From Veillonella intestinalis (GTDB taxonomy: Bacteria > Bacillota > Negativicutes > Veillonellales > Veillonellaceae): a stretch of DNA of 64,000 nucleotides. How positions within the stretch are numbered: the first letter of the stretch is position 1; each line of letters begins with the position of its first letter. The notes under the pieces were generated by a model that was not told where the DNA came from, did not search any database, and saw only the letters and a list, made by a program, of their open reading frames with translations. Shown here in pieces: positions 58,488-63,696 of the stretch. Position numbers and translations under genes: made by a program. The stretch lies in contig NZ_CALPDB010000004.1 in NCBI RefSeq assembly GCF_943193155.1, positions 124,001-188,000 on the forward strand. The letters run 5' to 3'.

Positions 58488-59717
58488 TTATATTTCTAAG
58501 GTTTTAATACGCTCGATGGCACGCAAGGTATTTTCACGACTACCAAAGGCAGTGAGGCGTAAATAGCCTTCGCCACAAGGCCCAAAACCTGCACCAGGGG
58601 TGCTTACAATATGCACTTTTTCTAGTAGCAAATCGAAGAACTCCCAGCTAGTCATACCTGTTGGCACTTTGAGCCAAATATAAGGGGCGTCAACGCCACC
58701 AAATACGGTGAGACCAATGGCTTCAAGGCCTTCACGGATGATACGAGCATTTTCTTTGTAGTAAGCAATGGCTTCCCGTGTTTGTTTATAACCTGCTTTT
58801 GAATAGACTGCTTCGGCAGCGCGCTGAATGATATAAGGCACACCATTGAATTTTGTGCATTGACGACGATTCCAAAGTTCATTTAAGGCTTGTTTATTAC
58901 CATCTGCTGTGTTGATAGTTAAGCTTTTTGGTACTACCGTATAGGCACAGCGAGTACCGGTGAAACCCGCTGTTTTAGAGAAGGAGCGGAATTCGATAGC
59001 TACATCACGAGCGCCTTCAATTTCATAGATACTATGGACGGTGTCTTCACTACTAATAAAAGCTTCATAGGCGGAGTCGAACATGAGCACCGCATCGTTA
59101 GCTTTGCACCAATCCACCCATTCTTTAAGGCGTTTACGACTTAATACGGTGCCTGTTGGATTATTTGGGCAGCAAAGGTAAACGATATCAACTCGTTTGG
59201 CAGGAAAGTCTGGGGAGAAATTATTTTCTGCATTGGTTGGTAAATATACGATATTTTCAAAGTGACCATCTACAAATTTTCCAGAACGACCACTCATTAC
59301 ATTACTGTCCAAGTATACGGGATATACTGGATCAGTAATGGCCACCGTATTATTAGCACTAAATAATTCTTGGATATTGCCCACATCAGATTTGGCTCCA
59401 TCAGAAATAAATACTTCATCAATTGCTAAATCGATGCCAAGGGGTTTGTAATCGTGATCGACTACAGCTTGGCGTAGGAACTCATAGCCTTGTTCAGGGC
59501 CATAACCACGGAAGGTTTCCGCATGGCTCATTTCGTCTACGGCTTTATGCATAGCTTCGATAACAGCTGGTGCTAGTGGTTGGGTTACATCGCCAATGCC
59601 AAGGCGAATGATGTCAGCCTTAGGATTGGCTTTTTGAAAGTCCGCCACTTTACGTGCAATATTAGCAAATAAATAGGAACTTTGTAGATTGGCATAGTTT
59701 TCATTAATTAGAGCCAT
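58488..59717 (-). CDS. dapL: LL-diaminopimelate aminotransferase
   Basis: PLP enzyme making LL-diaminopimelate from tetrahydrodipicolinate in one step, for lysine and cell wall. The 409-residue protein has the PLP lysine in '[11 protein letters not shown]' and the DapL opening '[13 protein letters not shown]'. The ATG at 59717 follows AAAGGAGG on the minus strand; the frame upstream to 59777 only translates the leader repeats. Confidence 0.95.
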
Positions 59718-59736: not shown

Positions 59737-59778
59737 TAAGTACATATTGGTGTAAGTACATATTGGTGTAAGTACATA
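59737..59778 (-). repeat. 16-base tandem repeat in the dapL leader
   Basis: TAAGTACATATTGGTG occurs at 59737-59752 and 59753-59768, with a 10-base partial copy after it, between the dapL promoter and its ribosome site. Confidence 0.85.
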
Positions 59779-59818: not shown

Positions 59819-59940
59819 GTTCTAGCGTATTGCTAAAGCTAGCACACTATATAAATACTATATAATATAGAAAATATTAAATTTATTGTTTTATTTTACT
59901 ATATTTAGGACCTTTATGGCAATAAAGATAGTAAAATAAA

Positions 59941-59976
59941 GAAAAACAGGAATCCGGGGAGGGATTCCTGTTTTTC
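59941..59976. terminator. Bidirectional terminator next to the candidate pseudoknotted RNA
   Basis: A perfect 15-bp stem (59941-59955 with 59962-59976) with a six-base loop. On the minus strand it ends in TTTTTC, 23 bases past the closing helix of the candidate RNA. Confidence 0.93.
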
Positions 59977-59999
59977 TTGTAAGGGGAGTGTTAGTGTTA

Positions 60000-60120
60000 A
60001 TCAAATGAAATATTGATTACCTATATCGGCCGAACAGGGAGGGTTCAGATTCGATATAGTTCCCTGTAATCAATGATACAGGCAATCCGAATGGGGTATC
60101 GGAATTACCATTCATTTGAT
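60000..60120 (-). ncRNA. Candidate structured RNA with three-way junction and pseudoknot
   Basis: A 10-bp perfect closing helix (60000-60009 with 60111-60120) encloses two arms. Arm A has 60012-60020 with 60066-60074 (9 bp), then 60021-60028 with 60052-60059 (8 bp), then a 4-bp tip (60032-60035 with 60043-60046). The tip loop (60036-60040) is complementary to the bulge at 60061-60065, giving a 5-bp pseudoknot. Arm B has 60081-60090 with 60099-60109. The minus strand is favoured because flanking genes run that way, a terminator follows, and one mismatch in arm B becomes G-U. No known family recognised. Confidence 0.55.
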
Positions 60121-60267
60121 AATATAATCATAAGCCACCAAAATGAATGGAAAATGAACATTTTGGCGATTTATCGAGTTTTTTTGTGAAAAATTCGTAT
60201 TTTATTTAATGGACGAAATGGGCAGTAAACCGCTTGATATATATAGCTTGTCAATTATCCTAGGATA
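60121..60267. other. Gap between the candidate RNA and the sensor operon
   Basis: Contains a hairpin with an 8-bp stem (60138-60145 with 60159-60166), a T-run at 60179-60185 on the plus strand, and the perfect palindrome TATCCTAGGATA at 60256-60267 next to the stop of the PepSY-like gene. A minus-strand TTGACA lies at about 60253-60248 without a good -10. Confidence 0.45.
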
Positions 60268-60993
60268 TTAGTGTACTATAGATTTAATTATATGTCCATT
60301 AACCCCGTCAATAATTAATTCATAGGTTAAACCAGAGCGTGTAGCCTTAATTTGATAGAAAGGATGTGTTTGAAATTCCTGTGGGGGTGTACGACTAAAA
60401 TCATTAGCCGGCATAGCTTTGTTAGTTGTGGTAGTAGGAGCTGCTTCTTTGGTGACAGTTCCTTCCGGTACTGGGTCTACTAATGGGCCTTGATTTCCTA
60501 TAGATGATTTATGGGTAGCTTCGTTTTTAATAGGCATTTTGAGTGGTGGTAAGGACGCTACATTACCTTCTTCTTCGCCAGGAATCACCATTTTATCAGG
60601 ATCATTCATCAACTCTTTATCAGTGCTACTTTGACGAGCATGACCTTTGCGGACTTGCGGAGGGACTGGTAAATCATCAAATGCTATGAGGGCAATTTCT
60701 TTAAAGGAGAGTTCATTTAAAGAAACGCCTGTATTAATAGCTGTTAGTTCTTTGATACGTTCTTCGCTGAGTAATGTTAAATTGTTGGCGAGAGCTTGTG
60801 CTTTTATCATTTCAGAACGGGCAGCTACTACTTTTTCCTGTTCTTCTGCCTTTAGGTAGTCGTGAATCCCATAGATGATGGTACCGATAATACTGACTGC
60901 AATGAAGATAGAGAGTATGCGACGAATTCGTCGCGTCGGTGGCTCTGTATCAGTGGTTTCAACAGAAGAAGAGGGTTGTATTAAATGTTTCAT
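60268..60993 (-). CDS. Single-span membrane protein with C-terminal PepSY-like segment
   Basis: A 241-residue protein. Residues 1-24 are cytoplasmic and basic, 25-44 a membrane helix ('I-L-S-I-F-I-A-V-S-I-I-G'), then a helical part, a Pro/Thr-rich linker and a last 30 residues reading 'Y-E-L-I-I-D-G-V-N-G-H-I', the PepSY-type strand turn. It follows the histidine kinase with a 4-base overlap, so it probably acts with that sensor in the periplasm. Exact role unknown. Confidence 0.65.
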   Translation of the reverse strand: MKHLIQPSSSVETTDTEPPTRRIRRILSIFIAVSIIGTIIYGIHDYLKAEEQEKVVAARSEMIKAQALANNLTLLSEERIKELTAINTGVSLNELSFKEIALIAFDDLPVPPQVRKGHARQSSTDKELMNDPDKMVIPGEEEGNVASLPPLKMPIKNEATHKSSIGNQGPLVDPVPEGTVTKEAAPTTTTNKAMPANDFSRTPPQEFQTHPFYQIKATRSGLTYELIIDGVNGHIIKSIVH

Positions 60994-62441
60994 GGTAAAT
61001 CCTTTCCAGAGGCCTCAGCGGTCGTTGTAGGAAATTCCAAAATAAAGCTAGTTGACACATGAGGTTCACTTACAGCATAGGCTTTGGCATGATGTAACTT
61101 TATGATGTTTTGTACAAAATAGAGTCCCAGTCCAAGACCTTGGTCTGCTTTTTTAGTACGAGCCTGATCGACTTGATATAAGCGATTCCAAATCTTTGCT
61201 AAATCTTCTTGGCTGATGCCAGCGCCATTATCAGTGACGATAATGCGAATGGCTTCATCGGCTTTTTCTAAGGCAATTGTAATAGTATCATTGGTGAATT
61301 TAATTGCGTTATCGACTAAGTTGCCAACGGCACGTTTTAAAAATGGAAGATTACCGGTTATGGATAGATTTGGTTCAAGGTTTGCCTGTAAGGTTATCTG
61401 TTTTTCCTTACAGATACGTTGATAGCTATCAACGACTTCTTGCATCATTTGACTTAAATCAAGAGGATCTTTTTTTATGTTAGCCATATTATCAAGGCGT
61501 GCAATATCAAGTAATTGCGTAACCATAGCTGTCATAAAACGGCTTTGCTGGAAAATATGTTCAAAACTTTCTTTAGCTTCGTCTATAGTATTGATATAGG
61601 CTCTGCCAAAATCACTTTCTGCTTGAATAACAGCAATTGGTGTTCGCAATTCATGAGATACATCCGAACTGAATTGCTTTTCTCGCAGTGAGGAGTTTTC
61701 TAAACTATCCAGCATGCTATTAAAAGTTTGCGATAGGGCTGAAATTTCATCATGACTATCGACTAATTGTTCAATACGTTGTGATAAGTCGCGTTTTTGT
61801 CCGATAGTAGCCGCTGTTTGGGTCATATTACGAATAGGCCGTAAGCCTCGTTTTATAATCCAGTAACCACCACTAGTTCCAATTACTAAGAAGATGACAC
61901 CACCTAAAATAAGTGACCAGAGCATAATATTGGCAGCACGGCTTGCTGTAGTAGCAGGTAACACACCACGAACCCAACCGTGAAAGGCTGGATCAGCTAC
62001 TGGGGCATCATAATAGTAGAAGGTCGCATTTTTTACAGTTATTTCTGTAATGTGATGGGGGGAGAGCATACTTTCTGGTGGAAAGCCATCAGGAATAGCC
62101 CCTTTAATAGCCACCCCGTTGTCCATATAGAGTACCGTAAAAACACCATCTTGGAAGGGTCTAAAACGCATCAAATTATCGGCTGTGTTGATAACTCGTG
62201 ATTGCAAGGTACTACGCATTTCAGAGTCTTCCCACAATTGTGTAAATTGTAGAATGAAGACGGATAGCATGAGTAACATAAGGAGCAAAAAGATAGAGTA
62301 CCAACCAGTGATTTTTAAAGTAATGGGCAATCGGTTAAAAGGATTGCCTAAGAGTCCGTTTTCGTTGCGGACAAAGAGGGAACGAAACCAGTGTCCCATT
62401 CCCTGCAAATTTGATTCCTTATTCTTCCACTTTGAACACAT
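60990..62441 (-). CDS. Sensor histidine kinase
   Basis: A 483-residue transmembrane kinase: membrane helix near residues 45-68, an extracytoplasmic domain of about 100 residues, a second helix near 172-193, HAMP, then the phospho-acceptor His in 'D-V-S-H-E-L-R-T-P' near residue 265. ATP-binding boxes are N ('N-L-V-D-N-A-I-K-F'), G1 ('D-N-G-A-G-I-S') and G2 ('G-L-G-L-G-L-Y'). The ATG at 62441 has GAGGTG 6 bases upstream on the minus strand and overlaps the regulator gene by 23 bases. Signal unknown. Confidence 0.92.
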   Translation of the reverse strand: MCSKWKNKESNLQGMGHWFRSLFVRNENGLLGNPFNRLPITLKITGWYSIFLLLMLLMLSVFILQFTQLWEDSEMRSTLQSRVINTADNLMRFRPFQDGVFTVLYMDNGVAIKGAIPDGFPPESMLSPHHITEITVKNATFYYYDAPVADPAFHGWVRGVLPATTASRAANIMLWSLILGGVIFLVIGTSGGYWIIKRGLRPIRNMTQTAATIGQKRDLSQRIEQLVDSHDEISALSQTFNSMLDSLENSSLREKQFSSDVSHELRTPIAVIQAESDFGRAYINTIDEAKESFEHIFQQSRFMTAMVTQLLDIARLDNMANIKKDPLDLSQMMQEVVDSYQRICKEKQITLQANLEPNLSITGNLPFLKRAVGNLVDNAIKFTNDTITIALEKADEAIRIIVTDNGAGISQEDLAKIWNRLYQVDQARTKKADQGLGLGLYFVQNIIKLHHAKAYAVSEPHVSTSFILEFPTTTAEASGKDLP

Positions 62442-63093
62442 AGCCAACACCTCGTACGGTATGAATTAATTTGGCTTCGTCGGCTACGTCAAGTTTCTTA
62501 CGCAAGTCTTTAATATATACATCTATTAAGTTAGAATAACTTTCATAATCATATTCCCATACATGGTCAAGGATTTGTTGACGGGATAATACGATGTTTA
62601 CATTACTTGCTAAATAATATAATAGGTCGAATTCTTTGGCTGTTAATACTAACTCATGGCCATGTAAAGTAGCGGTACGACTTTGGCTATTGATTGTCAA
62701 AGGACCAGCTTCTAAATCATTGTGAGCATGGTTGTAGCTACGACGAGATAAGGCGTAGATACGAGCAATTAACTCTTCAAATTCAAAAGGTTTTACTAAA
62801 TAGTCATCTCCACCATGATTAAAACCTTTGATTTTATCTTGAAGGGCATCTTTCGCTGTTAAGAATAAAACGGGTGTTTTATTACCTTCTTGGCGCAAAT
62901 GTTGTACTACTGTGAAACCATCCATTTTAGGGATCATTACGTCCATTACAACAACATCATAGCTGGATGTATTGATATGGTCTAATGCGGTCTCACCGTC
63001 AAAACAGCAGTCTACTGTCATGGACTCTACGCGGAGGCGTTTGGCGATAATATTATTTAACATTTCTTCGTCTTCAACTAGTAAAACTTTCAT
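62419..63093 (-). CDS. OmpR-family response regulator
   Basis: A 224-residue regulator: receiver domain with acidic pocket 'V-E-D-E', phospho-Asp51 in 'V-V-M-D-V-M-I-P' and Lys near 102 in 'L-V-K-P-F'; winged-helix output domain from about residue 128 ('T-A-K-E-F-D-L-L-Y-Y-L'). First gene of the regulator-kinase-PepSY operon. Confidence 0.94.
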   Translation of the reverse strand: MKVLLVEDEEMLNNIIAKRLRVESMTVDCCFDGETALDHINTSSYDVVVMDVMIPKMDGFTVVQHLRQEGNKTPVLFLTAKDALQDKIKGFNHGGDDYLVKPFEFEELIARIYALSRRSYNHAHNDLEAGPLTINSQSRTATLHGHELVLTAKEFDLLYYLASNVNIVLSRQQILDHVWEYDYESYSNLIDVYIKDLRKKLDVADEAKLIHTVRGVGYVFKVEE

Positions 63094-63696
63094 ATAATCA
63101 CTCCTGTCTTACAGAAATAAGCCTGTTTCACACCCAATATGGAAGGTAACAGACTATAATCAAACACAAATATATTTGATGCTCTTCGTAATTAATTATA
63201 ACAATTAATTAATAGCAATTTTATGCGCCCAGTATAACGTAAGGGAATGAACTCATTATGAAGAGATATCCTTTGGGCATTAAATTTATGATAACTAAAT
63301 TGTGCACCTTTGTGTTTTATGCATAGATTAGACGTTTTTTGGACGTTTAAAGGAAAAACAGAAAAAAACAGAAAAAAACGATGATAATGGTTTTCGTTTA
63401 GTTATTACTTTTTTCTATTCTGAAATATAAAAGAATAGAATACATATAAAATAAACGTTGATTTACTGGGAAATGACAGTTGTATATGCATTAATTATAC
63501 CCTAAATTGAAGGGAATTAACTAATTGATATAAATTATCATTTGTGAAGTATGTTTTCAAGTATGAGTAATTGAGTTTGGACAAAAACCTTTAAAAACCG
63601 CTATAATTAAGTAACAAGCTATAGGATTGGTATGCAACAGGTATCGCATACCGTTAATAAGACTGTAGGAAGTAGGTACAAGTTTAGGAGGTTATT
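63094..63696. other. Intergenic region between the sensor operon and the flavoprotein gene
   Basis: 603 AT-rich bases. On the minus strand an extended -10 (TATAAT at 63200-63195, preceded by TGT) can serve the response regulator. On the plus strand TTGGAC (63577-63582) and TATAAT (63602-63607) form a promoter with a long 19-base spacer for the flavoprotein. A 7-bp inverted repeat (63629-63635 with 63646-63652) follows in that leader. The middle holds A-runs with ACAGAAAAAAA repeats at 63357-63377. Confidence 0.5.

Follow-up and report, generated by a model that had tools for sequence, protein, structure and literature searches.

A conserved three-way-junction RNA of Veillonella, a candidate small regulatory RNA under probable two-component control

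We analyzed a 64,000-nt stretch of the Veillonella intestinalis genome (the window, to which all positions below refer) around an element that lies between a two-component operon and dapL. The operon is encoded on the minus strand and comprises the genes for a response regulator, a sensor kinase and a third, membrane-anchored protein; the element and dapL follow it on the same strand. The element is a conserved folded RNA of the minus strand (60120-59978), and its features and those of the operon are collected in Table 1. Just 5' of the dapL start (ATG near 59717), a 16-bp unit TAAGTACATATTGGTG is repeated 2.6 times with 100% identity (59737-59778); this repeat probably explains the ORF-list start at 59777, which would be an upstream artefact.

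Table 1. Features of the RNA and of the neighboring two-component operon in the window
Feature	Positions	Strand	Evidence and remarks
Small RNA body, three-way junction and single-stranded linker	59978..60120	-	Fold z = -5.1, covariation, covariance-model hits in 21 genomes
P1, 5' strand AUCAAAUGAA	60111..60120	-	Pairs with 60000-60009; sequence kept in both clades
P1, 3' strand UUCAUUUGAU	60000..60009	-	Fold and covariation analysis
Arm B hairpin with 8-nt C-rich loop	60081..60109	-	Two pairs changed on both sides
Arm A (P3, bulge, P4, P5, loop)	60012..60074	-	Six pairs changed on both sides in P3 and P4
Invariant 18-nt anti-Shine-Dalgarno-like linker ACUAACACUCCCCUUACA, between P1 and terminator	59978..59995	-	0 mismatches in 21/21 genomes
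Intrinsic terminator of the small RNA, loop CCUCCCC (C-rich, V. ratti/magna clade)	59939..59978	-	17 pairs, G-U allowed; ~22 nt past P1
Direct repeat TTCAT-TTTCCA-TTCAT, presumed response-regulator box replacing the -35	60143..60158	-	TTCAY-N6-YTCAY at this place in 21/21 homologs
Predicted -10, TATGAT (TATAAT in most homologs)	60127..60132	-	Alignment of 21 promoter copies
Third operon gene, membrane-anchored protein	60268..60993	-	No Pfam match; confined to the V. ratti/magna clade and one further family genus
Sensor histidine kinase (HAMP, HisKA, HATPase_c)	60990..62450	-	Ortholog in 29/29 family genomes
OmpR-type response regulator (Response_reg and Trans_reg_C), presumed activator of the RNA	62419..63093	-	Domain matches
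Second box copy TTCATAATGAGTTCAT, promoter of the two-component operon	63247..63262	-	Kept 5' of the response-regulator gene in 27/29 family genomes

The minimum free energy of the minus-strand fold is -41.1 kcal/mol (z = -5.1 against dinucleotide shuffles), compared with a z of only -2.1 on the same scale for the plus strand. Helix P1 has 10 bp (60120-60111 with 60009-60000) and encloses two arms. Arm A is built of a 9-bp P3, an asymmetric 6-nt bulge AGGGAA on the 5' side (60065-60060), an 8-bp P4, a 6-bp P5 and a C-rich tip loop of 7 nt, CCUCCCU (60042-60036). The nested helices and three-way junction of the preliminary description, its eight-base C-rich loop in arm B (UACCCCAU at 60098-60091) and the terminator that it placed after the fold (59978-59939) were all recovered on the minus strand. 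The opposite strand, which it had offered as possible, was rejected, since the fold is weaker there and both promoter and terminator point the other way. It had known no consensus that fits, and Rfam 15 likewise returned no family for the element: at the gathering score, with 6S, SRP, T-box and lysine riboswitch models included, the window contains nothing but a tRNA, and a permissive search added only matches far under that score.

Conservation of the RNA was analyzed in two clades of Veillonella. The V. ratti/magna clade was represented by seven genomes (V. ratti, V. seminalis, V. magna, Veillonella sp. R32 and KGMB01456 among them), and the parvula clade, counted as a second genus, by 15 genomes (V. 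parvula, V. atypica, V. rogosae, V. montpellierensis and others). The RNA is present once per genome in all seven members of the former and in 14 of the 15 members of the latter, where a covariance model built from the seven ratti/magna copies detects it; conversely, a model built only from the parvula-clade copies recovers the RNA of the window with E = 4.5e-5. In the sole parvula-clade genome that has no copy, the kinase gene lies at a contig end, so that a gap in the assembly may account for the absence. The 40 Veillonellales genomes outside Veillonella (7 from the same family, 33 from other families) yielded no copy. A repeat or mobile-element origin was ruled out by the single copy in its own genome together with the lack of any match in phage or plasmid records.

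Across the seven ratti/magna genomes, 97% of pair cells are standard and eight pairs are changed on both sides, a covariation that none of 500 shuffles matches and that is destroyed by sliding the partners. The parvula clade contributes five further pairs changed on both sides (reached by 0 of 500 shuffles). The preliminary description had suggested covariation as a check on its helices, and these do covary in two independent clades. The sequence of P2-P4 is almost wholly different between the clades. P1, the C-rich loop of arm B, the six-base 5' bulge of arm A and the C-rich apical loop appear in nearly all predicted folds, and arm A keeps its architecture, though not its sequence, in the parvula clade and V. 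montpellierensis. All 21 copies possess their own promoter and their own terminator, the terminator hairpin standing at the same place in each with a clade-dependent sequence.

The unpaired parts of the RNA are distinguished by their composition. Over the 20 homologs, unpaired positions are 36% C and 5% G, compared with 14% C and 18% G at paired positions. The linker is wholly unpaired in the minimum-free-energy folds of 16 of the 20 homologs, and its CUCCCC core is unpaired in all of them. Its invariance extends beyond this C-rich core and is more than pairing with Shine-Dalgarno (SD) sites alone would need. The C-rich motifs vary by clade (UACCCC, AUUCCCUG, ACCCCC) and have only C-richness in common; within the parvula clade, the bulge UCUCCC is unvaried and the linker varies at one of 25 positions. 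In copies of that clade, the word AAUACUAAC occurs twice, once in the linker (AAUACUAACACUCCCC) and once in the apical loop (AAUACUAACCCC), a pattern that resembles an internal duplication of a single pairing element. Two genomes of the V. ratti clade contain, beside a lipoprotein-like gene, a perfect 20-nt match to TTTGATTAACACTAACACTC; these matches correspond to the 5' half of the linker and lack the fold and the remainder of the RNA. The sole linker match outside Veillonella among the genome contigs searched, in Ruminococcus sp. zg-924, was rejected, as it has no terminator, P1 or box.

The preliminary description proposed that a pseudoknot closes arm A. The underlying complementarity is real: the AGGGA of the bulge matches UCCCU of the tip loop over 5 bp, extendable to 7 (ACAGGGA/UCCCUGU). 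Because the pairing segment is unvaried across the seven ratti/magna-clade genomes, covariation cannot test this contact. In the parvula clade the bulge is UCUCCC and the complementarity is absent; both sides are C-rich there, and the contact is therefore no feature of the family. For a pseudoknot, P5 would also have to fold back along P4, the upper arm doubling back on itself, and a dimer contact or masking of the C-rich loop would account for the match equally well. The proposed pseudoknot thus stands as a complementarity of one clade and is unproven as a fold.

The promoter of the RNA links it to the adjacent operon. The -10 lies 10 nt past the direct repeat and ~7 nt ahead of the TCAA of P1, and the 5' end of the RNA would be expected at about 60120. 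The exact pattern TTCATN6TTCAT occurs twice in the window, against 0.28 occurrences expected, once in the promoter of the RNA and once in that of the regulator/kinase operon. The copy in front of the response-regulator gene would be best explained as the autoregulatory site of this regulator, the link between regulator and box being a statistical one. The boxed regulator promoters include those of genera that have no RNA; the two family genomes that make an exception show no box upstream of the regulator gene.

The combination of box and -10 was further used to scan two genome sets, yielding 34 matches in eight genomes and 29 in a second set of nine, each against a single match for the reversed control. 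The genes linked to the box encode an HtrA-like trypsin-PDZ protease, an M48/HtpX-like protease, HlyD-type adaptors, MlaE, PAP2, PepSY, SIMPL and PhoU-like proteins and YadA-type adhesins. The box is common to the promoters of the regulator, the RNA and other regulon members, as is typical of a small RNA regulated by a two-component system. TTCAY-N6-YTCAY with a -10 marks an envelope regulon across the Veillonella family, with genus-dependent membership. Besides the V. ratti/magna clade and the other family genus that have the third operon gene, a further genus has a PepSY protein with the same promoter box.

Taken together, these features make it likely that the element is a stand-alone, trans-acting small regulatory RNA of ~180 nt that is activated by the regulator and blocks SD sites with its C-rich strands. 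In the proposed mechanism, the OmpR-type regulator of the adjacent two-component system would bind the TTCAY-N6-YTCAY repeat and activate the promoter, and RNA polymerase would transcribe the three-way-junction RNA and stop at the terminator (59939). The junction would serve as a scaffold that exposes G-poor, C-rich strands, namely the loop of arm B, the bulge and/or loop of arm A and, above all, the linker, which is proposed as the main pairing region. By pairing with the G-rich SD regions of target mRNAs, these strands would keep the mRNAs from being translated, and the RNA would thereby form a non-coding, probably repressing, arm of the envelope-stress regulon.

The gene context bears most directly on the alternatives in which the RNA acts in cis. 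dapL is located downstream on the same strand, a few hundred nucleotides away, in six of the 21 genomes, all from the V. ratti clade. This arrangement, together with a three-way junction with loop contacts as is typical of riboswitches, would speak for a riboswitch or attenuator in the dapL leader with the terminator as its expression platform. However, the RNA lies directly 3' of the sensor kinase in V. magna and V. montpellierensis, and in V. parvula SKV38 it is free-standing, flanked by a TetR-type gene in convergent and a hypothetical gene in divergent orientation; dapL is not directly downstream in any of the three. The element therefore does not belong to one particular gene or pathway as its 5' leader, and the changing context excludes a cis role on dapL as its general function, just as the free-standing position excludes a cis role in V. 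parvula. In addition, no conserved alternative pairing between terminator and junction was seen, the terminator is present in every copy, the conserved residues fall in the linker and the C-rich loops rather than in the junction core, and dapL has a promoter-like site of its own at 59922-59893, as the preliminary description had noted. Its riboswitch reading is thus contradicted, and we consider such a function extremely improbable. Its other suggestion, a regulatory 3'-UTR RNA, comes close, in that the V. ratti/magna clade and V. montpellierensis have the RNA directly after the kinase or the third operon gene. Yet a processed or read-through 3' UTR of that operon, with no independent function or acting on that operon only, is very unlikely given the conserved promoter and box of the RNA in all 21 copies and its separation from that operon in the parvula clade.

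Two further alternatives concern what a stand-alone RNA would do. An open frame beginning at an AUG in P1 spans 32 codons in six genomes and 29 in nine parvula-clade genomes, which might point to a second function of the RNA as the message for a small peptide. But the frame is not kept, ranging from 8 to 32 codons (14 in V. magna and 9 in V. montpellierensis), and among six close species the amino acid is altered in 9 of 11 variable sense codons, partly through paired structural changes; there is no SD sequence, and the expected RNA start is only ~5 nt ahead of the AUG. We give this option hardly any credence. The C-rich loops could instead bind a protein. An RNA under the same regulator that titrates a C-rich-RNA-binding regulator or chaperone, or serves as an RNA sponge, with no pairing to mRNAs, would account for the multiple similar C-rich single strands, which recall the repeated motifs of protein-titrating RNAs, and for the invariant 18-nt linker. 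It would also agree with a strict target search in nine genomes (AAGGGGAGT close before ATG; pattern AAGGGGAGTN{1,11}ATG), which identified no gene common to the species. Nevertheless, the clade-variable motifs are alike only in C-richness, which fits base pairing better than a single protein site, and the standard anti-SD design of Firmicutes uses strands rich in C and poor in G; we therefore regard this explanation as rather unlikely and favor the mRNA-pairing small RNA. An extended version of the latter is possible, if doubtful, in which the rigid three-way junction is a multi-site platform for four or five interchangeable C-rich strands, one of which can be masked in the V. ratti clade by the GGGA bulge as a built-in switch, and the RNA is the first envelope-stress small RNA known from diderm Firmicutes, with an origin independent of its proteobacterial counterparts.

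Several known systems resemble the Veillonella RNA in part. The envelope-stress small RNA arm of Proteobacteria is exemplified by CpxQ, a CpxR-dependent 3'-UTR RNA. By analogy, the Veillonella RNA may act as the non-coding arm of a regulon for the envelope whose members are of the HtpX, HtrA and transport types, and in some species it is located at the 3' end of the sensor operon; it differs in its independent promoter, in the phylum and in the lack of homology. The streptococcal csRNAs depend on CiaR and on a TTTAAG-N5-TTTAAG box located ~10 nt before the -10 (PMC3091779, PMC8186281). Shared with them are a box for an OmpR-type regulator that is made of two direct repeats with an 11-bp period and lies 10 nt from the -10 (PMC3091779), a short stand-alone RNA ending in a terminator, an anti-SD sequence in an unpaired stretch before this terminator (here the linker) and a regulon that includes an HtrA protease. 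Unlike the csRNAs, which are single simple hairpins in several copies per genome, the Veillonella RNA is a three-way junction in one copy, its box has the TTCAY-N6-YTCAY rather than the TTTAAG-N5-TTTAAG sequence, it has no anti-AUG CAU ahead of the anti-SD, and Rfam shows no sequence similarity. With IsrR of Staphylococcus, RsaE/RoxS and FsrA it has in common that conserved C-rich single strands occur at several places, both in loops and adjacent to stems, in an AT-rich genome, whereas IsrR is controlled by Fur and folds into three separate stem-loops, in place of a closed three-way junction and a two-component box (PMC9410917). In PMC8632094, the ldh2 and gltD riboswitch candidates of Negativicutes are described as lying before the fixed genes Ldh_2 and gltD. 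They too are structured RNAs of Veillonella relatives, and ldh2 has a three-stem junction, but the Veillonella RNA has no fixed downstream gene and possesses its own terminator. More generally, it does not occupy the positions of the Veillonella motifs ilvD, potE, gltD and ldh2 from the Breaker laboratory, being set apart by the context given for them in the text of that paper. No description of the RNA was found in the literature searched, and an unnamed prior listing in the supplement of PMC8632094, a survey that covered relatives of V. parvula, is possible.

We file the RNA as previously uncatalogued and as a new family among the two-component-controlled C-rich small RNAs. The Negativicutes are Firmicutes that possess an outer membrane, and we found no paper in the literature searched on a small RNA that controls their envelope. 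The locus provides a concrete RNA, its likely regulator, a DNA box and a regulon of HtrA-, HtpX-, MlaE- and HlyD-like proteins and adhesins. RNA-mediated control of the envelope in diderm Firmicutes, as it is found in Proteobacteria, would thus be directly testable in V. parvula.
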